64,000 bases of DNA from Pyrobaculum sp. WP30 (GTDB lineage Archaea; Thermoproteota; Thermoprotei; Thermoproteales; Thermoproteaceae). Positions 42,601 to 63,639 of the stretch are shown piece after piece. The stretch covers positions 310,001 to 374,000 of the forward strand of contig CP012158.1 of NCBI GenBank assembly GCA_001189275.1, written 5' to 3'. The position numbers were made by a program, and so were the translations under genes. The notes beneath the pieces were generated by a model. The model was not told where the DNA came from and ran no database searches. It saw only the letters and a list, made by a program, of their open reading frames with translations. Each line of letters starts with the position of its first letter. Positions within the stretch are counted from its first letter, which is position 1.

Positions 42601-44652
42601 TTATTTCAGGACCCAGATGGGGGTGAAGGTGGCGTTTCTGAGCTCCAGCCCGAGTAGGGCGGCGACGGTGGAGCCCACATTCGCCGCATATGCCTCAAAG
42701 CCCTTTATCTGTCTCACCTCAACGCCCTTGCCCCATATGCCGATGATGGAGCGTAGCTCCTTCCAGCTCCCCAGGCCGTCGTGGCAACCAGTCACGGAGT
42801 AGACGAAAGGTATGGGTCTGTTTACCACGTTGTCTCTAGTGGCGCTTTTGTCGTAGGCGCAGTACCCAGGCTTCACGGCTATGGCTATGTCGCCTATGCG
42901 CGACTGGAGCCTCGCAGGTCCGTCGAGGAAGAGCACCGATGTGTCGTGGCCGTAGATAGGCGCCAAAGGCCCGGCGGCCTGGCCGGTTCTGGCGACGACG
43001 AGCGCGAAGGGCCACTCGCCGGTGGCTGGGTCGCGGATGGAGAGAAGCACCTCCATCACCTTCTCCACCACTCTGCTGTAGGTGGCGGGGTCAGCCTTGT
43101 ACTTGGGGTTGATGAAGATGTAGGCGCCGTCGTAGTAGGCCACAGAGCGGGAGAGGTCGGGGTTGCCCTTTGCGTCTGTGACCAGGAGGCCGGCGCGCCT
43201 AAGGGCGGTGTTTACGGCGACGCAACCCCTCACGCCCCACTGGCCGTGGTCGCCCACTACGATCAACACGTCACCGTTTTTCATCTCTTTCATAAACTCG
43301 CCGAGCCACTGGTCTATCCTAGCCCACATGCCGAGGTAGGTCCTCCTGGCCCACTCGGCGATGGTGTTGTTGCTGTACGGCATGGACGGGTCCATGAGGC
43401 CGAGGATGGCGTGCTCCACCGGGTCGGGCGTCACGTCGTAGCCCGTCATCAGCTGGAACTCCACGTTCTTAAGCACGAAGAGGTTGGTGCGCCAGTAGTA
43501 GTCCACGGTGTAGTTCACAATCTCGGCGTATGTCTTGAGGTCGATCCAGCCTCTGCCCACATCGCCAGCGAGGCCGTGGTAGACGTCGATATAGCCCCTC
43601 TCAACCACCTCCTTCCAGTACTTCCTCTTGAGGTCCTCAGGCCCCATGAACCAGGCTATGGGGGCGTTGTAGATGAGGGCGTTGCCGCGGTATATCCTCA
43701 CGTCGTTGGGGGCTAGGGAGAGGGCCTTGACCATGAAGGCTGTCAGGTACGTGGTGCCCTTCTCCGTCACGTTCACCACCACGGAGGCCCAGCCGCCCTC
43801 AGGCACCTCGGCGATCTTCTTGTTGCCTTGATACAAGACGAGCACCTTGGCGCCGGGGTTCACTTCGCCCACCAGCACTGTGTCTGCGATGCGTATTTCG
43901 AGCTTGCCGCCAGAGTTGTTGAATTTGTAGAGCTGAGAGCTTGCGAAGCCTACGCCGGGCTTGTAGGCCTTCGTCGCGTATATGATCACGATCTTGTTCT
44001 TGTCGGCGTCGCTGAGCCTCGCCTGCCAGGTGGGCACATAGCCGTGGATGAAGTTAGAGACGGCCACTCTGTAGCCTTTGCGCAGAGCCGCCTCCCAGAT
44101 GGTGTCCGCCGCAATCAGCCGGCCCCAGTAGCCAGGCTCAGACCTGCCGCCCTCGAAGGGGGACTTGGGGTAGGCAGTGTTGGAGAAGACGCCGTGGATG
44201 CCAGACGGCGCCCCGGTCAGAAGGGCGGCGTGAGAGGGGGAGGTCTCGGCCGGGTACATGGGGGACAGCTCGCCGTACGCGCCTTCAGCCGCGATCTTGC
44301 CCATGTTCTTGAGGAACCCGTCTCTGGCAAGCGGCCACACGTCCATGCCCCTAGCGGCGTCTATACTGATCAAAATGACACGTTTAACCTCAGACTTCTG
44401 GTGCTGAGCCTGTGTCTGAGCCTGGAACTGCAACCTCGGCGCCTCAGGCGTCGTGGTGGCGGTTGTCGACGTCTCCGTGGCGGGCGAGGCGCCGGGCGCG
44501 GCGGGAGTCTGCTCTGCTAGGGAGGGTGTTGAGGTGGGGACCGTCTGTTGTGGACCTGTGGCGAGGAATATTGCCGCTAATGCTACCGCTACTATAGCTA
44601 CCGCCAGTGCCAGTATCGCGGTTTTGTTTTTTTGGATTTTACCCGGATTCAT
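42601..44652 (-). CDS. Type I phosphodiesterase/nucleotide pyrophosphatase, membrane-anchored
   Basis: 683 residues, alkaline-phosphatase superfamily. After an N-terminal membrane anchor (ILALAVAIVAVALAAIFLAT) and a Thr/Pro/Ala-rich stalk comes ILISIDAARGMDVWPLARDG; the segment MYPAETSPSHAALLTGAPSG holds the nucleophile region, and later VVGDHGQWGVRG and GHDTSV hold metal ligands. It should hydrolyse phosphate diesters or monoesters outside the cell. ATG 44652 has a CATATG element centred 37.5 nt upstream and no good TATA box, as for five other genes of this locus. Confidence 0.85.
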   Translation of the reverse strand: MNPGKIQKNKTAILALAVAIVAVALAAIFLATGPQQTVPTSTPSLAEQTPAAPGASPATETSTTATTTPEAPRLQFQAQTQAQHQKSEVKRVILISIDAARGMDVWPLARDGFLKNMGKIAAEGAYGELSPMYPAETSPSHAALLTGAPSGIHGVFSNTAYPKSPFEGGRSEPGYWGRLIAADTIWEAALRKGYRVAVSNFIHGYVPTWQARLSDADKNKIVIIYATKAYKPGVGFASSQLYKFNNSGGKLEIRIADTVLVGEVNPGAKVLVLYQGNKKIAEVPEGGWASVVVNVTEKGTTYLTAFMVKALSLAPNDVRIYRGNALIYNAPIAWFMGPEDLKRKYWKEVVERGYIDVYHGLAGDVGRGWIDLKTYAEIVNYTVDYYWRTNLFVLKNVEFQLMTGYDVTPDPVEHAILGLMDPSMPYSNNTIAEWARRTYLGMWARIDQWLGEFMKEMKNGDVLIVVGDHGQWGVRGCVAVNTALRRAGLLVTDAKGNPDLSRSVAYYDGAYIFINPKYKADPATYSRVVEKVMEVLLSIRDPATGEWPFALVVARTGQAAGPLAPIYGHDTSVLFLDGPARLQSRIGDIAIAVKPGYCAYDKSATRDNVVNRPIPFVYSVTGCHDGLGSWKELRSIIGIWGKGVEVRQIKGFEAYAANVGSTVAALLGLELRNATFTPIWVLK

Positions 44653-44680
44653 GAAGGGCTTTGTGTAAACATCTTGAAGT

Positions 44681-44696
44681 TTTATCCATATGAAAA
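44681..44696 (-). promoter_or_regulatory. Pho-box-like element of the phosphodiesterase gene
   Basis: Read in gene direction: TTCATATGGATAAAAC. The CATATG (44,687-44,692) is centred 37.5 nt before the start codon. Confidence 0.6.
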
Positions 44697-45057
44697 ACTA
44701 ATTTTGAAGACGCCTAGGCAGGTCGTTGCAGAAGCGGAAAAAATATGAACAATGCGCAACAGCTCATGTAGACACACATATGTAGTCTCTCCACGCATGT
44801 GGTCGCCCACCTGCGGCCGGCTTATGCACCAAATGCCGGCCCGTGCGTCGACCCACTGCGAGACGTCTCTGAAGAGGTCGGCGCAGGTGCCCGGTTCACG
44901 TCTCAGCGTTCGAGGACGACGCAGGTGGGCTTAGAGGGGGGCGAGGCGCCTACTGCGGTGGGCTAGAGAGGTTGGGCGCCCCCGCCGCCGGGGCCTCCCA
45001 AGCGCCTCACGTAGAACCGGTCAGCCACAGAAACCCCGGCCGCCCGCCGAGGACTCA
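44697..45057. other. Intergenic, no gene seen
   Basis: Contains one further CATATG (44,777-44,782, inside acacacatatgtagtc) without a start codon at the regular distance. No coding signal found. Confidence 0.4.
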
Positions 45058-45816
45058 CTACAGCCTAATCATCATGTTGTCCTCTGCTACTAGAACAGGT
45101 CTATTTGCCTTCTTTACGTCTTGGTATATGGTTGGGTTGAGGCGGTCGTCTATGTGGGTAAGCACCAGCTCCCCCGCCTTCATGGCCTCCCCCTCCGCCA
45201 AAGCCTCGAGGGTGGTGGAGTGGGCATACCTCCTGCAGAGCTCCTTGTTTTCTTCGTTGCAGGTGGCCTCCAGCACGGCCACGTCCACGCCGGCGCCCAG
45301 CCGCCGCAGAGATTCGCACTGCGGAGCCGTGTCGCCGGAGAACAACACGTCGACTCCAGCCCTCAGTCGGAAGCCGTACGCCTCCTTGGCCGTGTGGTGG
45401 CAAGCCTCGGCGGCCTCCACCCTAAGCCCCGGCAGATCCAGGAGGACGCCGGGGGAGACTCTGTGGAGTGAGATCTTGTAGGGCGCCGGGGCGACCTCGG
45501 CCACGAAGTGAGACGCCACGATCTTAGCCACCTCCTCCACAGGCGGCGGGGCGAATATGCGCAACGGCTTCTTACGGCCCTCCACATACGCCTGGAATAG
45601 GGCCTCCGGCAGCCCCAGGAAGTGGTCCATGTGGCCGTGCGTAATAAAGACGTAGTCTACCTCCGTCAAGAGGCCGCGGTCCGAAAGCCGGTAGTGGCAA
45701 CCCACTCCACAGTCAACAACCACCAGATGCTCGCCGGTGTCCACCAGATTAGCCGCCCGCCACCTCCGCGACCCGGTGCTCCCCCCGGTTCCCGTTCCCA
45801 AAAAATGGATGTACAT
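45058..45816 (-). CDS. Metallo-beta-lactamase-fold hydrolase
   Basis: 252 residues. FLGTGTGGSTGSRRWRAANL begins the fold; the metal motif is FITHGHMDHFLGLPEAL; later AEACHHTAKEAYGFRL, VDVLFSGDTAPQC and ELVLTHIDDR supply the remaining ligands, as in the RNase Z/cyclic phosphodiesterase group. In this locus a phosphodiesterase role is likely; tRNA 3' processing is less likely, given the setting. Its ATG follows the TAA of a short frame (TAATATG), and the only promoter in front of it is the one of that short frame. Confidence 0.8.
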   Translation of the reverse strand: MYIHFLGTGTGGSTGSRRWRAANLVDTGEHLVVVDCGVGCHYRLSDRGLLTEVDYVFITHGHMDHFLGLPEALFQAYVEGRKKPLRIFAPPPVEEVAKIVASHFVAEVAPAPYKISLHRVSPGVLLDLPGLRVEAAEACHHTAKEAYGFRLRAGVDVLFSGDTAPQCESLRRLGAGVDVAVLEATCNEENKELCRRYAHSTTLEALAEGEAMKAGELVLTHIDDRLNPTIYQDVKKANRPVLVAEDNMMIRL

Positions 45817-45817
45817 A

Positions 45818-45943
45818 TTAGCCCACGCACAACGGCGTCTCGGGGGCGGACACCACCAGCTGCAGGGCTGTCGACATCGCCGCTAGCACTGCCGCCGACA
45901 CAGACACCGTAGACTTACTTCTCCGGATCCTCTCCAGGTTCAT
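45818..45943 (-). pseudogene. Truncated duplicate of the phosphodiesterase 5' end, now leader of the MBL gene
   Basis: 41 codons from ATG 45943: MNLERIRRSKSTVSVSAAVL and a hydrophobic run, then stop. Both the promoter (CATATG, then cttcaag, ttac, caa, cctt, atgaa in the same order and spacing) and the first codons match those of the phosphodiesterase gene at 44,652 (MNPGKIQKNKTAILALAVAI). So the promoter and signal anchor were duplicated and the rest lost. The frame ends exactly at the MBL start and may be translated as a coupled leader. Confidence 0.6.
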
Positions 45944-45972
45944 AAAGGACGTTGGGTAAATAGCTTGAAGCA

Positions 45973-45988
45973 TTGTGCATATGGATAG
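45973..45988 (-). promoter_or_regulatory. Pho-box-like element of the leader-MBL unit
   Basis: Gene direction: TCCATATGCACAATGC. CATATG at 45,978-45,983 is centred 37.5 nt before ATG 45943. Confidence 0.6.
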
Positions 45989-46181
45989 GCCTAGACGAAG
46001 ACACATAACCTCGGCGTCGTGGAGACGAATACATATGAAGCTTACGAGGCAAGCCGCCTGAACCTGCCGTTACACGCACAGGGTTAGTCTTTCCGCGGCA
46101 ACAGATGAGCCTACTGTAGCGCGTAGTTAGGTGTAGGAATTATGAAAACTTAGAAACATGAAAAAACACGGTGTAGAGGCG

Positions 46182-47537
46182 CTATATGAGTCCCTCCTTC
46201 TTGCTCACCTCCACGAGTATTGAATGCATCTGCTTCACGGCCTCCTCAGCGGTGACGGCGTCTTGGAAGTACCGCGCAATGACTTCGTTCAGCCGCGGCT
46301 GGGCGGCTGTCCAGATCGGCGACGTGCGGGCCGGCGTTCCCGCCTCGATTATTTTGGCGTAGCTATCTGCCAGCCTGTTCCGCCTCCGCACCTCCGCGTC
46401 TGCAAACACGGTGGCCCGGGTGGGGGGCATGTTCACCACAAGCTGGGCCTTCAGCTGGGCCTCGTGGGACGTGACCGCCTTCACAAAGGCCTTGGCGGTC
46501 TCTTGGTTTTTGCTGAACTTAGGCACTACGTAGTACCACACGCCGGTGTGCGCCACAGGCCCTTTCCTGCCGGGGAGAGGCATAACCTCCACCTTCCCCA
46601 CCACTTTGCTGCGCTGGGGGTCGTCTACGTACTGTACCCACCCGTTCCACACCAAGCCTGAGGCGGCTTCGCCTTGGTATACGGACTCGTGTATTGAGCG
46701 GAGGTCTGGCCAGCTGGTGATCTGCGGGTGGCCGTTTTTGACGAAAAACTTCGTTGTCTTCAATGCCTCAACCGCCTCCTGCGAGTCCAGCACCGGCGTT
46801 ACGCCGTCTTTGGGGTCGAAGAAGGCGCCGCCGTAGGTCAGGAGAAGCAAGGCATACGCGTCTCCCGCCGCCCCGCTACCCTGGCCCACTGTGAAGTTGC
46901 CGGTGAAGCCGTATATCTTCGGCGCAAGTCTCTTCTGCACGGTCTCGGCTATTCGCATGATGTCATCCATAGACTTGGGTTTGTTCTCTCCTATCTGATC
47001 TAGCACGTCCGTCCTGTAGAAGTAGAAGTTGAAGTTGCCCAGGATCGGCACCGCGTAGAGGCCGTTGCCCGCCTTGACCGGCTCTAGAAGCTTTGGCGGG
47101 TAGCCCGTGGTGTCTACGTCAACGGGCACAGCCCACTGGGTGAACTCCCTTACCCAGGGCTCGTCGAGGTACAAGACGTCGTAGTCGGCGGCGCCCCTCT
47201 GCATGGCCAGCTTAGCCACTTGGTAGAGGTCGTTGTAGCCCTTTGGTATGTACTCCACAGCCACGGAGGGGTTTCGCTCTTTGAAATAAGGAATGAGGGC
47301 CTTATCGTGGGCGTCTTGGTGGTAGTCGGACCGGGCCAGGATTACCAACTTGCCTTGGGCGGCGCCGCCGGTGGTAGGCGTGGCCGTTGTCTGCGGAGTT
47401 GCGGAGGCTTGGGTTGTTGTGGTGGGGGGTTTAGGCTGGCTTAGTTGCCAGAGCACTCCGCCGGCGACTGCGGCGACGGCGGCCCCGCCTACGGCCATAA
47501 ACAGTTGCCTTCTTGAGATCTTTCCTTCTTGAGACAT
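46182..47537 (-). CDS. Extracellular solute-binding protein, family 1, Tat-type signal
   Basis: 451 residues. The twin-arginine signal is ISRRQLFMAVGGAAVAAVAG, followed by a Thr-rich linker (PTTTTQASATPQTTATPTT) that would tether the protein to the cell surface. The binding fold has LVILARSDYHQDAHDKALI, YDVLYLDEPWVREFTQW, ILGNFNFYFYRTDVL and VAHTGVWYYVVPKFSKNQE. It is UgpB/MalE-like; given GDPD, phosphodiesterase and PhoU neighbours, a glycerophosphodiester or another phosphate ester is the likeliest ligand. A paralogue is encoded at 51.5 kb; both may serve the same permease. Confidence 0.85.
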   Translation of the reverse strand: MSQEGKISRRQLFMAVGGAAVAAVAGGVLWQLSQPKPPTTTTQASATPQTTATPTTGGAAQGKLVILARSDYHQDAHDKALIPYFKERNPSVAVEYIPKGYNDLYQVAKLAMQRGAADYDVLYLDEPWVREFTQWAVPVDVDTTGYPPKLLEPVKAGNGLYAVPILGNFNFYFYRTDVLDQIGENKPKSMDDIMRIAETVQKRLAPKIYGFTGNFTVGQGSGAAGDAYALLLLTYGGAFFDPKDGVTPVLDSQEAVEALKTTKFFVKNGHPQITSWPDLRSIHESVYQGEAASGLVWNGWVQYVDDPQRSKVVGKVEVMPLPGRKGPVAHTGVWYYVVPKFSKNQETAKAFVKAVTSHEAQLKAQLVVNMPPTRATVFADAEVRRRNRLADSYAKIIEAGTPARTSPIWTAAQPRLNEVIARYFQDAVTAEEAVKQMHSILVEVSKKEGLI

Positions 47538-47566
47538 GGGCGGTCCTGTGATGGGATTTACATGTG

Positions 47567-47582
47567 TTGTTCATATGGTGGG
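47567..47582 (-). promoter_or_regulatory. Pho-box-like element of the first binding-protein gene
   Basis: Gene direction: ACCATATGAACAACAC. CATATG 47,572-47,577 is centred 37.5 nt before ATG 47537. A second CATATG lies 66 bp further upstream (47,638-47,643). Confidence 0.6.
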
Positions 47583-47655
47583 GGAGGTGGAGACGGCGGC
47601 TGGGTGGGGTGGGAGACGGGGTCTAAAAAGGCTGGGTCATATGAAGAGGAAAAAG

Positions 47656-48285
47656 TTAGTGTTTCAGCCGCGCCTCCGTCCTTTTAATTATCAGCTCTCT
47701 GCTTAGAGTCACCACCCGGGTTATACCCAGTGACAGCGCCTGATTCACCTCCAGGTGGCTGGTGACGGGCCCTATCATGGTTTTCATTTCTCTGGAGAGG
47801 GCGTATTTGACGTAGCGGGCGGTGGGGAAGCCGTTGCTTATGTCGAAGTAGACCGCCCTCGCGTGCGGTGCCTTGACCACGTCTGTGGGCCTCGTGACGC
47901 GGTACACCCACCGCGGGCCGTCCTCCGGCGGCGGCGTGTCTGTTAACACGTAGACGTCCCAGCTGGGCTTGACGTGGGCCACGAGGCGCTCAGGGTCGGC
48001 AGTTTCGAGATAGATCTCCCCCAAGCCGGACAAGAAACTAACCATCTTCTCCAGGGGGTAAACGCCGTCGGCCTCAGAGGCTGAGAGCGAACGCACCGAC
48101 CTAAGACCCCTGCCGAGCCGCAGAAGCGGACGGCCGGTCACCACAGGCCGGTCGTCCTCTGTGAAGACCACGTGTAGGACCACCCCGGCGGCCCCCCTCT
48201 CCAGCACCGCAACGACCTCGTCCAGCACGTCAAAGGTGGTGTTCTTGGCGTCGTAGATCAAGTCGGGGGTCGGATACCTCGGCAT
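47656..48285 (-). CDS. Degenerate glycerophosphodiester phosphodiesterase-like protein
   Basis: 209 residues from ATG 48285. NTTFDVLDEVVAVLERGAAG and VVLHVVFTEDDRPVVTGRPL follow the GDPD pattern (ENTLxAFxxAxxxGADxIELDVxxTxDxxxVVxHD), but the His-Arg at the start, the E-L-D acidic pair (here V-L-H-V) and the second His (here T-G) are replaced. The barrel continues (YLETADPERLVAHV, VYVLTDTP, ALSLGITRVVT). It is probably not a normal hydrolase and may bind substrate or regulate. The longer frame to 48,390 is rejected because the conserved promoter element lies inside it. Confidence 0.6.
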   Translation of the reverse strand: MPRYPTPDLIYDAKNTTFDVLDEVVAVLERGAAGVVLHVVFTEDDRPVVTGRPLLRLGRGLRSVRSLSASEADGVYPLEKMVSFLSGLGEIYLETADPERLVAHVKPSWDVYVLTDTPPPEDGPRWVYRVTRPTDVVKAPHARAVYFDISNGFPTARYVKYALSREMKTMIGPVTSHLEVNQALSLGITRVVTLSRELIIKRTEARLKH

Positions 48286-48314
48286 GTTGAAGAGAATGAG
48301 GACAACTTTGAGAA

Positions 48315-48330
48315 TTATCCATATCAAACC
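48315..48330 (-). promoter_or_regulatory. Pho-box-like element of the GDPD-like gene
   Basis: Gene direction: TTGATATGGATAATTC. The GATATG variant (48,320-48,325) is centred 37.5 nt before ATG 48285. Confidence 0.6.
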
Positions 48331-48390
48331 GCCGGCCCCAGCCGCGGGAGACGCCGCAGCGTCCACAAAACCTGCATATGAATAGCACAT

Positions 48391-48775
48391 GTCAAAACCT
48401 CCAGAGACGTCCCTCGAAATCCCTCTGGGAGACGAGATGCGCCGCGAGGTCTCTTGAAACCCCTCGGCAACGCCTCCACAGGAGGTCTTACTCCTCTTGA
48501 CGCATTCCCATCTGCTGGCTAGACCTCGCCCACGACGTCAAGACCGCAGTAGGCGCACCACATTGTTCCAGAGGGGCCTAGTCCACGGCTAAGACCACCT
48601 GCCGAACCAGGCCGACACACAAGGGCTCATAAACGGCGTCTTAAAACGTGGGGATGCGTCACGAGAGGAGGTCAGCCTCGCCGACGTAGCGTGGCTTGGG
48701 CGTCTTGAGGCTGTGGTCAGGTCCGACGGGGTGCTTCGTTTTCTGAATGGTCGTTGTGTCTCTCTGGCTGATGCG
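48391..48775 (+). other. Intergenic, with a plus-strand coding trace
   Basis: A trace ending near 48,780 reads TREEVSLADVAWLGRLEAVV and SDGVLRFLNGRC but has no start and several upstream stops. I cannot assign it; probably decayed. Confidence 0.25.
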
Positions 48776-49570
48776 TCACCACTTGGCGACGGCTAGCCGC
48801 GTCATTGTGCGGGCCGCCATTGTTACGAAGGCGACCGGAGGCAGGGTGCTGAGGAAGGAGGCGGCGGCCAAGACGCCCCACTCGTAGCGGAACTCTGAGG
48901 TGGCTAGGTGGCCCAGCTTTACCGAGGCTGTGAGGAGGTCTTGTGAGTTGAGCAACACCGCTGCGTAGAGGTACTCGCCCCACACCTCTATCCCGGCGAG
49001 TACGGCGGTGGCGGCTATGCCCGGCGCCATCATGGGCAAAGCCACGTGGAGGAACCGCCTCACGGGCCCAGCCCCGTCGAGTTGCGCGGCGTGCTCCACC
49101 TCATGGCTGTAGTCGAAGGCGAAGGCTGTGACCAGCCAGAGGCCGAGGGGCAGGGTGTAGACTTGGTAGGCAATCGCAAGGCCCAGCAGGTTGTTGAGGA
49201 GGTTTAGGCGCCAGAAGGCGTCGTATATGGCGACTAGTAGGGAGCTGGGCGGGAGGGCCCTTGTCAGCGCCACCAACGCCACCGAGACGAGGAGCGTCTG
49301 CCTCGAAAAGCCCAGCCTGGCCAAGGCGTAGCCCGTCGGCGCGGACAGCGCCACCGTTACGGCCACGGTGAGCAGGGCCACCACTGCGCTGTTGAGCAGG
49401 CTTTGGCCGAAGCCGAGCTTCAAAGCCTCTTGGTAGCCCTCAGTGGAGGGGCTGGCCGGCGGGAACTGGGGGACGCCCGGCGGCATCAGCGAGGCGAGGA
49501 AGATGACCGCCAGCGGGAACAGTGCCGTGGCCGCCGCGAGGGCCACCGCGAGGTCCGCTAGGCGCGCCAT
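48776..49570 (-). CDS. ABC sugar/glycerophosphate-type permease, MalG/UgpE-like
   Basis: 264 residues with six membrane helices (first: LAVALAAATALFPLAVIFLA). The cytoplasmic EAA loop is HAAQLDGAGPVRRFLHVALP, which docks on the ATPase. ATG 49570 overlaps the preceding permease by 13 nt; the longer open frame is a shadow. It is the last gene of the ATPase-permease-permease operon. Confidence 0.85.
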   Translation of the reverse strand: MARLADLAVALAAATALFPLAVIFLASLMPPGVPQFPPASPSTEGYQEALKLGFGQSLLNSAVVALLTVAVTVALSAPTGYALARLGFSRQTLLVSVALVALTRALPPSSLLVAIYDAFWRLNLLNNLLGLAIAYQVYTLPLGLWLVTAFAFDYSHEVEHAAQLDGAGPVRRFLHVALPMMAPGIAATAVLAGIEVWGEYLYAAVLLNSQDLLTASVKLGHLATSEFRYEWGVLAAASFLSTLPPVAFVTMAARTMTRLAVAKW

Positions 49571-50409
49571 GTCCTCAGCACTAGGTAGACGTAGGGGATG
49601 GCCACCACCGACACCAAGGCCGCGATCAAGATGGAAACCGCCGCGCCCGTGCCTATGTCCAGCGGGTAGATGCCCCTCGTGTAGAGGAACACCTCCAGCG
49701 TGGCGGTGGAGTCGCCGGGGCCGCCCTTGGTGAGGAGCCACACCTTGGCGAATATCCTAAAGGCGTCTATCAGCCTGAGCATCAAGGCCGCCAGAATGGC
49801 CGTCATGGACATGGGCAACACCACCTTGAAGGCCATGGGCAGGCGCCTGGCGCCGTCTATCCTCGCCGCCCACAGAACCTCCCCCGGGATCCCCAGCATC
49901 CCCGCCAAGACGATCAACACCACAAACGGGGTCAGCTGGAGGACGTCTAACGCGACTATGGCCCACAGGGCGGTCCCGGGATCGCCCAGTAGGTTAGGCA
50001 TGGAGAGCCCAAGCGAGGCGGCGGCGTTGGCAAACACGCCTCTTCTGAAATCCACCGCGAAGTACCAAAAGACGACGTAAGACACCACAGGTATGAGAAG
50101 AGGCACGGTAAGCAGAGGGACGGCCCACCGCCGGCCGGATATGTATATCCAGTACGCAAACAACACACCCAAAGCCACCTCGAGAACAGTTGCCGACGCC
50201 ACGAAGGCCGCGGTGACTAAGACCGACTTTTGGAAGGTGGGGTCCCCCAAGACGGCTAGGTAGTTGCCGAGACCTACGAACCTAGGCGCCTCGGCCCTAA
50301 ACAAGCTGTAGTAATACATGGAGAGGTAGAGGGTGTAGAGAAGCCCGGCCACGTAGGCGGCGAGGCCGAGGAGGCCGGGGGCAACCAGGAGATATCTACT
50401 CAGCCGCAT
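49558..50409 (-). CDS. ABC sugar/glycerophosphate-type permease, MalF/UgpA-like
   Basis: 283 residues, six helices, with the EAA-type loop EVLWAARIDGARRLPMAFKV followed by VLPM. ATG 50409 (MRLSRYLLVAPGLLGLAAYV) overlaps the ATPase gene by 14 nt. Together with the next gene it forms the membrane channel. Confidence 0.87.
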   Translation of the reverse strand: MRLSRYLLVAPGLLGLAAYVAGLLYTLYLSMYYYSLFRAEAPRFVGLGNYLAVLGDPTFQKSVLVTAAFVASATVLEVALGVLFAYWIYISGRRWAVPLLTVPLLIPVVSYVVFWYFAVDFRRGVFANAAASLGLSMPNLLGDPGTALWAIVALDVLQLTPFVVLIVLAGMLGIPGEVLWAARIDGARRLPMAFKVVLPMSMTAILAALMLRLIDAFRIFAKVWLLTKGGPGDSTATLEVFLYTRGIYPLDIGTGAAVSILIAALVSVVAIPYVYLVLRTWRA

Positions 50410-51346
50410 ACTCCAGAAGGCGTCTGACGCCGAAGCGGATTTTTCCATCTATGCTCGGCTTCTCTGCGGTGTACAGCTTCACCAGGGACCCGCCTACCCT
50501 CGCCACCACGGCCCACCACCGGCCTCTGAACTCCACGTCTATCAGCTCGCCCACGAAGTCGCCGGCGCCCAGCTCCGCATCCTCCGGCCTAAAGGCCAGA
50601 AGCCGGCCGTCTATCGGCACCAAGTTGTAGCCCATAAACACGGCGACGTCTGGACAACATGGCTTTTGCAGAACCTCCTGCGGCGTTCCCACCTGCAGTA
50701 GCCTCCCCCGCCGCAAGACGCCGAGGCGGTCGGCAAGCGCCATGGCCTCCTCCCGGTCGTGGGTAACCATCACCGTGGCTATCCCCAGGTCTTTTATTAT
50801 GCGCCGAATCTCAGCCCTCACAGACTCCCGCAAAAGGGGGTCGATGTTGCTGTAGGGCTCGTCCATCAACAACACCCGGGGCCTCTTCACCAGTGCCCGC
50901 GCCACCGCCACCCTCTGCCTCTGGCCGCCGGAGAGCTGGGCGGGCTTTTTATTCAGCACCTCCCTTATCCCCAGTAGCTGGGCTACCTCCAGCACCGCCC
51001 GGTTTATCTCCTCCCTCGGCCGCTTCGCCATCTTAAGGGGGAAGGCGATGTTGTCAAAGGCGGTCATGTGCGGGTAGAGGGCGTAGCTCTGAAACACATA
51101 CCCCACGTTGCGCCTCTCAGGCGGGACGTACACGCCCCCCGAGTCGTCCACAAGCGCCCCGCCTAGATACACCTCGCCTCTGTCCGGCCTCAAAATGCCG
51201 GCAATTATGTTAAGCGACGTGCTTTTCCCCTCCCCGCTGGGGCCCAACACCACGAAATACTCTCCCTTACCCACCTCCAGCTCAAGCCCGTTCAGAACCC
51301 TCAGCCTTCCAAAAGACTTCTCCACGTTCCTCAAGACCACCGCCAC
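50396..51346 (-). CDS. ABC transporter ATPase, MalK/UgpC-like
   Basis: 316 residues. Walker A GPSGEGKST, signature LSGGQRQRVAVARAL, Walker B VLLMDEP, H-loop VMVTHD, and a C-terminal TOBE part with LAFRPEDAELG. GTG 51346 (VAVVLRNVEKSFG) is chosen because it begins the domain and because the shared promoter element lies exactly 37.5 nt upstream; the frame to 51,397 would cover that element. It is the first gene of the transporter operon and is divergent from the second binding-protein gene. Confidence 0.9.
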   Translation of the reverse strand: MAVVLRNVEKSFGRLRVLNGLELEVGKGEYFVVLGPSGEGKSTSLNIIAGILRPDRGEVYLGGALVDDSGGVYVPPERRNVGYVFQSYALYPHMTAFDNIAFPLKMAKRPREEINRAVLEVAQLLGIREVLNKKPAQLSGGQRQRVAVARALVKRPRVLLMDEPYSNIDPLLRESVRAEIRRIIKDLGIATVMVTHDREEAMALADRLGVLRRGRLLQVGTPQEVLQKPCCPDVAVFMGYNLVPIDGRLLAFRPEDAELGAGDFVGELIDVEFRGRWWAVVARVGGSLVKLYTAEKPSIDGKIRFGVRRLLEYAAE

Positions 51347-51375
51347 GCCCCGCGGCGCACGTGGCCATATAACCA

Positions 51376-51391
51376 TTATCCATATGAAAGG
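51376..51391 (-). promoter_or_regulatory. Pho-box-like element of the transporter operon
   Basis: Gene direction: TTCATATGGATAATGG. CATATG 51,381-51,386 is centred 37.5 nt before GTG 51346. Confidence 0.6.
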
Positions 51392-51484
51392 CTCCAAACG
51401 CCGCCTACATCCTCACTGGACGCGTAGAGATGAGGCTATGAAAACGTGACAGACCCCAGCGGGCGGGTTCGTCAGATGCCCACT

Positions 51485-51500
51485 GTCTTCGTATGGGCAA
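51485..51500 (+). promoter_or_regulatory. Pho-box-like element of the second binding-protein gene
   Basis: Gene direction: TCTTCGTATGGGCAAT. The CGTATG variant (51,490-51,495) is centred 37.5 nt before ATG 51530; this is the only plus-strand member. Confidence 0.55.
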
Positions 51501-51529
51501 TGTTTTACTCTTCGCCGTCTCCGCGCGCT

Positions 51530-52843
51530 ATGGTTCAGAAAATAACTAGAAGACAAATGTTGTATCTGGCGGTAGGCGGCGTGGCGGTGCTCGCCGCCGG
51601 CGGAATCATATACGCGTGGCAACAGTCGTCCTCCACGGCCACGCAGACCGCCGCCCCGTCGGCGAATCAGCCCCGGAGGCTCAGCATCTTGGCGCGGTCT
51701 GCCTACCACCAGGAGATAAACCAGGCCTTGATGGAGTACTACAACAGCAAGAGGCCGCCGGTGGAGTTCAACTACATACCCAAGGGCTATTCCGACACCT
51801 ACCAGGTGGCGGTGCTGGCCATGAGGAATAAATCCACCGACTACGACGTCATGTACCTCGACGAGCCTTGGCTCTACGAGTTCTACGTAAACGGCTGGCT
51901 GGAGCCCCTAGGCGACATGGACATGTCCGGCGTCCTCCAAAGCACTGCGGATCTAGGCAGATACAAGGGGGCAACCTATGCGATGCCCATCACCGGCAAC
52001 TTCAACTTCATGTTTTACAATAAGGAGCTTCTGGATAAAGTTGGCGAGTCGCCTCCCAAGAGCTGGGACGACGTCCTCAGAATAGCGGAGGAGGTGAACC
52101 AGAAGCTGGCGCCGAAGAGCTACGGCTGGTCCGGCAACTACCCAGATGGAGTCCTGTCGGACGTATACGCCACGGTTCTCCTGTCGCTGGGCGGCTACTT
52201 GTTCGACCCCAAGGATAGGGTGACGCCGATGTTAGACACGCCTGAGGCGGTGGAGGCGCTTAAGATCGTGCGGGACCTAGCCTCGCCCAAACGCGCCCAC
52301 CCCAAAACCACCAGCTGGTCGTCCCTTACAGAGTACAGCGACGCCATCCTCAACGGCGAGGTGGCCATGGGCGCCGTCTGGAACGGCTGGGTCAAAGACG
52401 TGGATAACCCCAGCCGCAGCAAGGTGGTGGGGCAGATATACCTAGTCCCCATGCCCGGCAAGAGGCCGGTGAGCCAAACCGGCGTGTGGTACTACACGGT
52501 GCCGGTTTACAGCAAGAACAAGGAGCTGGCGAAGGACTACATAAAGGTGGCCACCTCCTACGAGGCGCAGAAGTACGCCTACCTCAAGGCCGGCCTCCCG
52601 CCGACGCGGATAAACGTGTATGAAGACCCGGAGGTGCAGCAGAGGAGCAGGCTCGCCAAGATGTTTGCAGAACTCGCCAAGGTGGGCATGCCCGCGAGGA
52701 CAAGCCCCATATACATGAAGCTTGAGTCAGACCTCACCTCCACAGTCAACAAGGTCGTGCTGGGCCAGCTGACGCCGGAGGCCGCCGCGGCCCAGATGCA
52801 GAGGATGCTGATGGAGGAGAGCAAAAAGGCCGGGTTGCTGTAG
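51530..52843 (+). CDS. Extracellular solute-binding protein, family 1, Tat-type signal, second copy
   Basis: 437 residues, close paralogue of the protein at 46.2 kb: LSILARSAYHQEINQALMEY, YDVMYLDEPWLYEF, PITGNFNFMFYNKELLDKVG and QTGVWYYTVPVYSKNKE align throughout. The signal is ITRRQMLYLAVGGVAVLAAG, again twin-Arg, with a shorter Ser/Thr/Gln linker. ATG 51530 is chosen for the signal peptide and for the promoter spacing. It is divergent from the ATPase gene, the usual arrangement for a binding protein and its permease. Confidence 0.87.
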   Translation: MVQKITRRQMLYLAVGGVAVLAAGGIIYAWQQSSSTATQTAAPSANQPRRLSILARSAYHQEINQALMEYYNSKRPPVEFNYIPKGYSDTYQVAVLAMRNKSTDYDVMYLDEPWLYEFYVNGWLEPLGDMDMSGVLQSTADLGRYKGATYAMPITGNFNFMFYNKELLDKVGESPPKSWDDVLRIAEEVNQKLAPKSYGWSGNYPDGVLSDVYATVLLSLGGYLFDPKDRVTPMLDTPEAVEALKIVRDLASPKRAHPKTTSWSSLTEYSDAILNGEVAMGAVWNGWVKDVDNPSRSKVVGQIYLVPMPGKRPVSQTGVWYYTVPVYSKNKELAKDYIKVATSYEAQKYAYLKAGLPPTRINVYEDPEVQQRSRLAKMFAELAKVGMPARTSPIYMKLESDLTSTVNKVVLGQLTPEAAAAQMQRMLMEESKKAGLL

Positions 52844-53013: not shown

Positions 53014-53874
53014 TTACGTCTTTCTACGGCTACGCCTCGGCGTAGAGGTGGTGTGGATAGAGTCTTGTAGGGGGGATTTGTTTTGAGTTGCGTATATCGC
53101 CATGTCTAGGTAGACTTCGGCGGCGTTTTCTAAATAGTCCAGTGTCCTTACGGCGTGTATGGACTGGTGTTCTTGGCTTGTCTGTTGCATGGCGGCGAAC
53201 CGCCTGGAGGCCATGGTGGAGAGGTACTGGGCAATGGCGGCTGTCTGCCTGTTTTGATGTATCGTGTGTAGCTCCTTGGCGGCTTCCCACAGAAGGGCCC
53301 AGAGGCCCTGCGGCGGCCTCTCGGCGTAGAGCTCCCTCACGTGGTCCACGGCCCTTTCGTAGAAGCGGGCCAGCTGTATGTAGAAGGTGCATTTGGGAGT
53401 GGGGGTCTTGGTGCAGAGGCGGTTTACGGTGAGCCTGAGGACGTCTGACTCGTCGTCTGCGGCTTGGACGGTGGCTCGGGTGGCGGTGCCCTTGGCGAGG
53501 CCCTCCAGCAGGTATGTAAGCGCCGACAGCATCCGCCCCACCACCTCCTCCTTGTCCATAAACCTGTCCACATAACGAATTCTGTAGACGTCGCCCACCT
53601 TCTCCACCACGGCGCCCACCTTCCCAGCCGCCTCAACCACTGCCTCCCCGGCCGCCGCCAGCTCCAGCTCGTCCAGCCCAACAGCGTACCCAGCCACGAC
53701 GACCTGCGGAAGCCCCACGTCTGCCGTAGACCCGCGGAGAGCTGCAGGAGACACGCCCACGAAGTCGCCCTCCCAAAAGACCACAACCTCCTCAGAGACA
53801 AAGGAAGAGGCGACGCGCTTCGGCAAATAGACGAGGTAAGACCCCCTAAGCCTCACGAGCTTCCTGACCTCCAT
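53014..53874 (-). CDS. phoU: PhoU-type phosphate regulator with N-terminal AbrB domain
   Basis: 286 residues. The N-terminal about 45 residues (MEVRKLVRLRGSYLVYLPKR, VASSFVSEEVVVF) form an AbrB/MazE-like domain, as in archaeal PhoU regulators. The rest is helical with the repeated PhoU pattern (LLEGLAKGTATRATVQAADD, ADDESDVLRLTVNRL, LARFYERAVDHVRELY). It ends in a basic tail (TPRRSRRKT). A tttatag box lies about 24 nt upstream and no CATATG element is seen, so it is probably expressed constitutively. It is the best candidate regulator for the six CATATG promoters next to it, by position. Confidence 0.82.
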   Translation of the reverse strand: MEVRKLVRLRGSYLVYLPKRVASSFVSEEVVVFWEGDFVGVSPAALRGSTADVGLPQVVVAGYAVGLDELELAAAGEAVVEAAGKVGAVVEKVGDVYRIRYVDRFMDKEEVVGRMLSALTYLLEGLAKGTATRATVQAADDESDVLRLTVNRLCTKTPTPKCTFYIQLARFYERAVDHVRELYAERPPQGLWALLWEAAKELHTIHQNRQTAAIAQYLSTMASRRFAAMQQTSQEHQSIHAVRTLDYLENAAEVYLDMAIYATQNKSPLQDSIHTTSTPRRSRRKT

Positions 53875-63422: not shown

Positions 63423-63639
63423 GAGACCACCTCCAGTCAACTATAAAAACGTTGTGCATAACAGCCGCTCGGACCGGGGGGATTGAAATTTTTTAGTAGC
63501 TGTAAAGTAAGCAAAACGTTTCGTGTATATTGCCAAGACCGCTACGTGTTAACTGTTGTGACTGTTCATACCTGACCTGATAGACCGTGGATTACGATCA
63601 GCGAACTCGGCAGTCGTCATCTTCTGCCTAGAACCGACT

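Follow-up and report, generated by a model that had tools for sequence, protein, structure and literature searches.

In the bacterial Pho box, direct repeats are recognized by PhoB, the response regulator of a two-component system, which sits beside the sigma factor, and archaeal activators such as those of the Sulfolobus ara box and M. jannaschii Ptr2 bind just upstream of the TFB recognition element (BRE). A link between Pho boxes and PhoU regulators is already known from haloarchaea: according to PMC6560208, the Pho box or P box of the Halobacterium salinarum pst operons is essential for upregulation and is a PhoU-regulator binding motif (Furtwangler et al. 2010, cited therein). Furthermore, TK2245 of Thermococcus kodakarensis, a SpoVT/AbrB protein with a PhoU domain, is listed among chromosome-associated proteins in PMC7325993, a source that gives no operator or function for it. 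Neither a Pho box nor a phosphate regulator of Thermoproteales turned up in the open literature, which leaves most subscription papers uncovered, and their response to phosphate limitation appears to have been undescribed so far. Here, we analyzed a 64,000-nucleotide stretch of Pyrobaculum sp. WP30 (contig CP012158.1, positions 310,001 to 374,000; hereafter the window), in which six promoters carry a palindromic box at one fixed distance from the start codon, an element that we regard as a good candidate for the phosphate switch of the Pyrobaculum group.

Like the bacterial Pho box, this putative operator is common to pst, phoU and organophosphate genes, but it is a palindrome and lies next to an archaeal TFB/TBP promoter. 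Like the ara box and the Ptr2 site, it lies upstream of a weak promoter's BRE or in contact with it; its sequence and regulon differ, and no regulator family is known for it. The haloarchaeal P box is likewise a cis-acting site of archaeal promoters that drive phosphate ABC transporters (PMC6560208), although it belongs to a distant lineage and is likened here by description rather than by sequence; we saw no mention there of twin phased palindromes. The domain pairing described for TK2245 recurs in our candidate regulator, AbrB-PhoU, again a comparison by description only.

The initial annotation had reported TATGNRYAA elements before six starts (44652, 45943, 47537, 48285 and 51346 on the minus strand, 51530 on the plus strand) and had read them as a candidate archaeal Pho box, an interpretation that our analysis supports. 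All six sites are present at the places and distances named, with the T of TATG exactly 38 nt upstream of the start codon in every case (five ATG, one GTG), and the reported hexamers were borne out: CATATG is exact in four promoters, with GATATG at 48285 and CGTATG at 51530. On the minus strand, the proximal boxes are TTCATATGGATAA (44682..44694) before the phosphodiesterase gene that starts at 44652, TCCATATGCACAA (45973..45985) before a unit of a short open reading frame (ORF) and a metallo-beta-lactamase (MBL) gene starting at 45943, ACCATATGAACAA (47567..47579) before the gene for binding protein 2 (start 47537), TTGATATGGATAA (48315..48327) before a gene for a 209-amino-acid orphan protein (start 48285), and TTCATATGGATAA again (51376..51388) before the ABC ATPase-permease operon (start 51346); TTCGTATGGGCAA (51488..51500) on the plus strand precedes the gene for binding protein 1 (start 51530).

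Several comparisons address how far this arrangement exceeds background. TATGNRYAA occurs 13 times in the window (2.8 expected), a count reached in none of 100 shuffles, and the six sites account for 6 of these 13 occurrences. Across the six promoters, six columns are invariant (-38 to -35, -31 and -30), whereas 20,000 random sets of six window starts never gave more than three. Over the 1.99 Mb of the complete genome, eight matches were counted for the exact-distance pattern followed by ATG, five of them in the cluster (the sixth cluster site, at 51346, precedes a GTG and is hence outside this ATG-based count), compared to about two per gap at other gaps (20–40) and none for a reversed control pattern. 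The promoters at 44652 and 45943 are related over their whole length (21 of 29 spacer positions identical) and look like copies, so that the independent cases number five, not six; the remaining 14 promoter pairs, with 6–14 of 29 spacer positions identical, are unrelated outside the box.

The box consensus is a 10-bp palindrome, TTC(A/G)TATGAA, and the promoters usually have a distal second site; neither had been part of the initial annotation. In 17 of 29 promoters a second box lies 53–57 or 64–66 bp upstream of the first, whereas in 1000 sets of shuffled upstream regions the number of promoters with an in-register distal box averaged 0.08 and did not exceed 2; these pairing statistics are guides, orthologous promoters being related and not independent. 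The two spacing classes are roughly a helical turn apart, and since they amount to roughly five or six turns, both sites would lie on the same face of the DNA. Every one of the six window promoters has such a distal element, a TTCATA half-site or a full box, at 54, 54, 55, 55, 55 or 66 bp. On the minus strand these are a half-site TTCATATTTT (44740..44749) 55 bp above the proximal center of the 44652 promoter, and full boxes TTCATATGTA (46030..46039; spacing 54) for 45943, TTCATATGAC (47636..47645; spacing 66) for 47537 and TTCATATGCA (48373..48382; spacing 55) for 48285. The divergent 51346 and 51530 promoters have in common one half-site, TTCATAGCCT or AGGCTATGAA according to the strand read (51433..51442, assigned to no strand), which is centered midway at 51437.5, one proximal box being 54 bp away and the other 55 bp. 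A two-box pattern searched over whole genomes matched three times in the WP30 genome, each time in the cluster, and twice in P. oguniense (G002), before abrB-phoU and the gene for binding protein 2. Elsewhere it found pstS in G007, abrB-phoU in G005, the phosphodiesterase gene in G018 and a binding-protein gene in G001, along with a G005 match without an ORF and a G004 match before a 258-amino-acid ORF; these assignments cover WP30 and its relatives, outgroup matches being left out. The G001 gene (L189:16451-17941), of the SBP_bac_8/1/6 solute-binding type, has both boxes and stands beside a probable ABC permease gene.

A further check proposed with the initial annotation, namely a search for the element at phosphate genes of the same and related genomes, was run and had a positive outcome for pstS, pstB and phoU. 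pstS is preceded by a proximal and/or distal box in 12 genomes (WP30, G001, G002, G004, G005, G007, G009 and G010–G014; in G004 and G009 the boxed copy is pstS2), and in the aligned relatives the box occupies -38/-39, a place about 55 or 65 bp further upstream, or both. Boxes also precede pstB in G001, G007 and G010, and phoU in WP30 (where CATATGAAAAC lies at exactly -38), G002, G005 and G007. The box is not universal on pstS: none was found at pstS1 of G004 (L132), pstS1 of G009 (L134) or pstS of G006. In P. oguniense TE7, a relative of the same genus, the pattern CRTATGNANA 38–39 nt before an ATG has six matches in the whole genome; the sixth lies inside a long reading frame, and the five at gene starts belong to pstS, phoU, abrB-phoU and two binding-protein genes. 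The shared element thus stands before pst as well as other phosphate-acquisition genes, as in a Pho-type regulon. In the WP30 pstB gene (L120:13845-14594, minus strand), a weak box, ATCATATTAACAAT, is found 40 nt ahead of the ATG, compared to good boxes in pstB of other species, and this may mark an internal promoter within the pst operon. A Pho4-type permease was sought as an extra target, and the WP30 genome has none.

A weight matrix trained without the window sites, on pst/pho genes of other genomes, binding-protein genes and the G018 phosphodiesterase gene (an orthologue of the window phosphodiesterase gene, with the box conserved), ranked the window sites within the first ten of some 128,000 positions. 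Five window starts (ORFs of at least 80 amino acids) score 13.7–19.4, above all other candidates (next 6.2). Applied to about 6,600 more candidate starts, the matrix recovered two sets of genes from outside its training set, pstB of G001, G007 and G010 and phoU of G005 and G007; the loci concerned had been chosen for their phosphate genes, and the whole-genome searches are therefore the cleaner test.

The candidate regulator is encoded next to the cluster (53014..53874, minus strand), and its orthologues lie beside pstS in most relatives. AbrB-PhoU divergently adjoins a boxed pstS in eight genomes (G001, G003, G004, G005, G007, G009, G010 and G014), adjoins one in tandem in G012 and lies within 1 kb of one in P. 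oguniense, where the abrB-phoU gene is itself boxed. Two pstS genes are present in each of G004 and G009: the boxed copy is the one beside AbrB-PhoU, and the other copy is neither boxed nor adjacent. In G006, neither AbrB-PhoU nor a pstS box was detected. The family has a conserved N-terminus (RGSYxxYLPK) with a predicted strand-strand-helix-strand-strand order. Seven of nine members match PF01895 (PhoU), weakly (best E 1.2e-4), with PhoU matches falling inside the AbrB-PhoU genes of G001, G002, G004 and G007; a single-sequence structure model is poor at the N-terminus, and its helical part matches the PhoU-like structure 2iiu with low confidence.

Taken together, these patterns make it probable that Pyrobaculum and Thermoproteus have a Pho-type regulon for phosphate acquisition, with the six sites among its proximal operators and AbrB-PhoU as the likeliest regulator. 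The fixed distance from box to start suggests leaderless promoters, in which the palindrome, centered 37–38 bp before the start codon, would touch the TFB recognition element, usually with a second palindrome or half-site 53–57 or 64–66 bp higher on the same side of the helix. A dimeric regulator, most likely AbrB-PhoU with an AbrB-like DNA-binding N-terminus and a PhoU-like sensing C-terminus, would occupy both sites co-operatively and, at low phosphate, alter the access of TBP and TFB to the promoter; given the contact of the proximal box with the expected TFB element, a bound dimer could either recruit or block TFB. Activation rather than repression is a first guess of low weight, favored by the window promoters having no perfect TATA box. 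The initial annotation had stated that none of the six has a good TATA box, and this holds insofar as a perfect TTTATA-like hexamer is absent from all six, but the 51346 promoter has TTATAT, and the difference from 28 other upstream regions (10 with a perfect TATA-like hexamer, the start being freely chosen) is a mere trend, not significant given uncertain starts; we accordingly rejected weak TATA boxes as evidence. Tentatively, and at somewhat less than even odds, one may picture a one-component switch, in which an AbrB-PhoU fusion would sense phosphate through its PhoU domain, bridge two phased TTCATATGAA palindromes and gate TFB/TBP at leaderless promoters, without a PhoB/PhoR two-component system and possibly including surface pili among its targets. 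What is gained is a precise consensus for the operator together with its geometry, targets listed in a dozen genomes and a single named candidate for the regulator, which opens the question to direct tests in vitro.

A number of observations weigh against this regulon. The perfect palindrome of the WP30 pstS gene (TIGR00975), ATTCATATGAAT, occupies the distal position alone, at -93 relative to the likely ATG, the -38 site being a degenerate CATAGCAAA, and the WP30 AbrB-PhoU gene is not beside pst and has no good box in its own promoter. No Pfam AbrB match was found for the family, the AbrB domain being assigned from a sequence signature in a region where the predicted local distance difference test score (pLDDT) is mostly below 50. 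Spacing classes and search ranges were chosen after inspection, which, together with the relatedness of orthologous promoters, tempers the pairing statistics. The nearest solved structure to binding protein 1 is a trehalose/maltose-binding protein, and a phosphorus-containing substrate of the transporter is conjectural. Boxes also precede genes with no evident tie to phosphate, among them a DUF996 gene and a pair of pilin genes. Finally, that a protein binds, which protein it is, that phosphate is the signal and what the sign of regulation may be are all inferred from sequence.

Some of these points lend themselves to other explanations. The Pho operator might be bound by another dimeric regulator (for example of the Lrp/AsnC or winged-helix type), leaving AbrB-PhoU as a linked phosphate-signaling partner only; the absence of linkage to pst in WP30 would fit, as would G008 (74% complete), where AbrB-PhoU was not found and pstS is boxed, and it is gene neighborhood that points to AbrB-PhoU as the binder. 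That same neighborhood, however, places AbrB-PhoU beside a boxed pstS in at least nine genomes and, where there are two pstS genes, beside the boxed one, and the abrB-phoU gene is boxed in P. oguniense, so we consider a different binder unlikely, if still worth keeping in mind. Less probable again is a regulon that answers another nutrient (sugar, carbon) or general starvation, with the pst genes as only a part of it: although a CUT1-type transporter whose nearest solved relatives bind trehalose or maltose, and perfect boxes at pilin genes, would suit it, the targets common across species are pstS, pstB, phoU and abrB-phoU.

The position of the box at the BRE, and four sites elsewhere in the genome (156672, 189513, 242387 and 373420) that abut TATA boxes, would also agree with a variant core promoter element (BRE and upstream bases) serving a TFB paralogue; such an element would need neither a palindrome nor a phased second copy about 55 or 65 bp higher, and we hold a core-element origin to be very improbable. 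A chance origin of the sites was rejected in view of the shuffles, the random six-sets and the cross-genome tests, and the spread of one promoter by gene duplication within the cluster, to which the duplicated 44652/45943 promoters and the paralogous products of 47537 and 51530 (the binding proteins) might point, is scarcely credible as a general account: duplication of promoters is confined to the one pair, the remaining promoters have nothing in common beyond the box, and the same element recurs at pst/pho genes of other species.

The cluster genes are better tied to phosphorus by their box than by annotation, and phosphorus-related functions are thereby suggested for orphan transporter and hydrolase genes. 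On the minus strand, 42601..44652 encodes a type I phosphodiesterase/nucleotide pyrophosphatase family protein with an N-terminal hydrophobic segment (PF01663, E 1.5e-31), and 45058..45816 an MBL-fold hydrolase (PF12706, E 1.7e-22). The initial annotation had taken 45943 as the start of the latter, which is wrong: the MBL ATG is at 45816, and 45943 begins a 41-codon ORF (45818..45943, minus strand) that resembles the phosphodiesterase N-terminus and whose stop lies one base before the MBL ATG. This ORF and its promoter are apparently a duplicate of the phosphodiesterase start placed before the MBL gene; a promoter-capture event and a coupled leader ORF are both options for its abutting position. 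The transporter genes comprise, on the minus strand, CUT1-type solute-binding protein 2 (46182..47537; PF01547, E 7.4e-38; with a P. oguniense orthologue), two CUT1-type permeases (48776..49741, whose listed 5′ end is probably too long, and 49558..50448; both PF00528) and a CUT1-type ABC ATPase with a GTG start (50396..51346; PF00005; best NCBIfam model GlcV, then UgpC), and, on the plus strand, CUT1-type solute-binding protein 1 (51530..52843; PF01547, E 8.1e-39). The earlier label of an UgpABC-type transporter did not survive comparison with model cut-offs (UgpC 267 bits against 432, UgpA 66 against 335), and since GlcT/U/V outscore the Ugp models yet also fall below cut-off, the transporter is assignable to the CUT1 family only. 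Similarly, the GDPD-like label for the 209-amino-acid protein (47656..48285, minus strand) had to be dropped, as it has no Pfam match even at E 5 and no PDB match; no homologue was found in 30 relatives, and its structure model is poor.

Whether the element is equally common before unrelated genes had been named as a test of the Pho box, and there it proved rare, with none among the five gene-start matches of P. oguniense, although some occur in WP30. There the exact element precedes an ATPase gene (189513), a DUF996 gene (242387) and two coiled-coil paralogues (156672 and 373420), directly before strong TATA boxes at all four sites, and a 128-amino-acid ORF is also boxed. The coiled-coil paralogues (window position 63460, minus strand; genome position 156672) have a GTG start with TATGCRCAA at exactly -38. 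The DUF996 membrane-protein gene (L188:1845-2390) has CATATGGATAA at -38 together with its TATA box and is a possible extra member of the regulon. Two near-identical archaeal type IV pilin genes lie in inverted orientation near genome positions 1767131 and 1774551 (L185:5131-5583, plus strand, and L185 start 12552, minus strand), and each is preceded, at the distance typical of the Pho box, by 66-bp tandem repeats containing two perfect TTTCATATGAAA boxes; surface pili may belong to the regulon.

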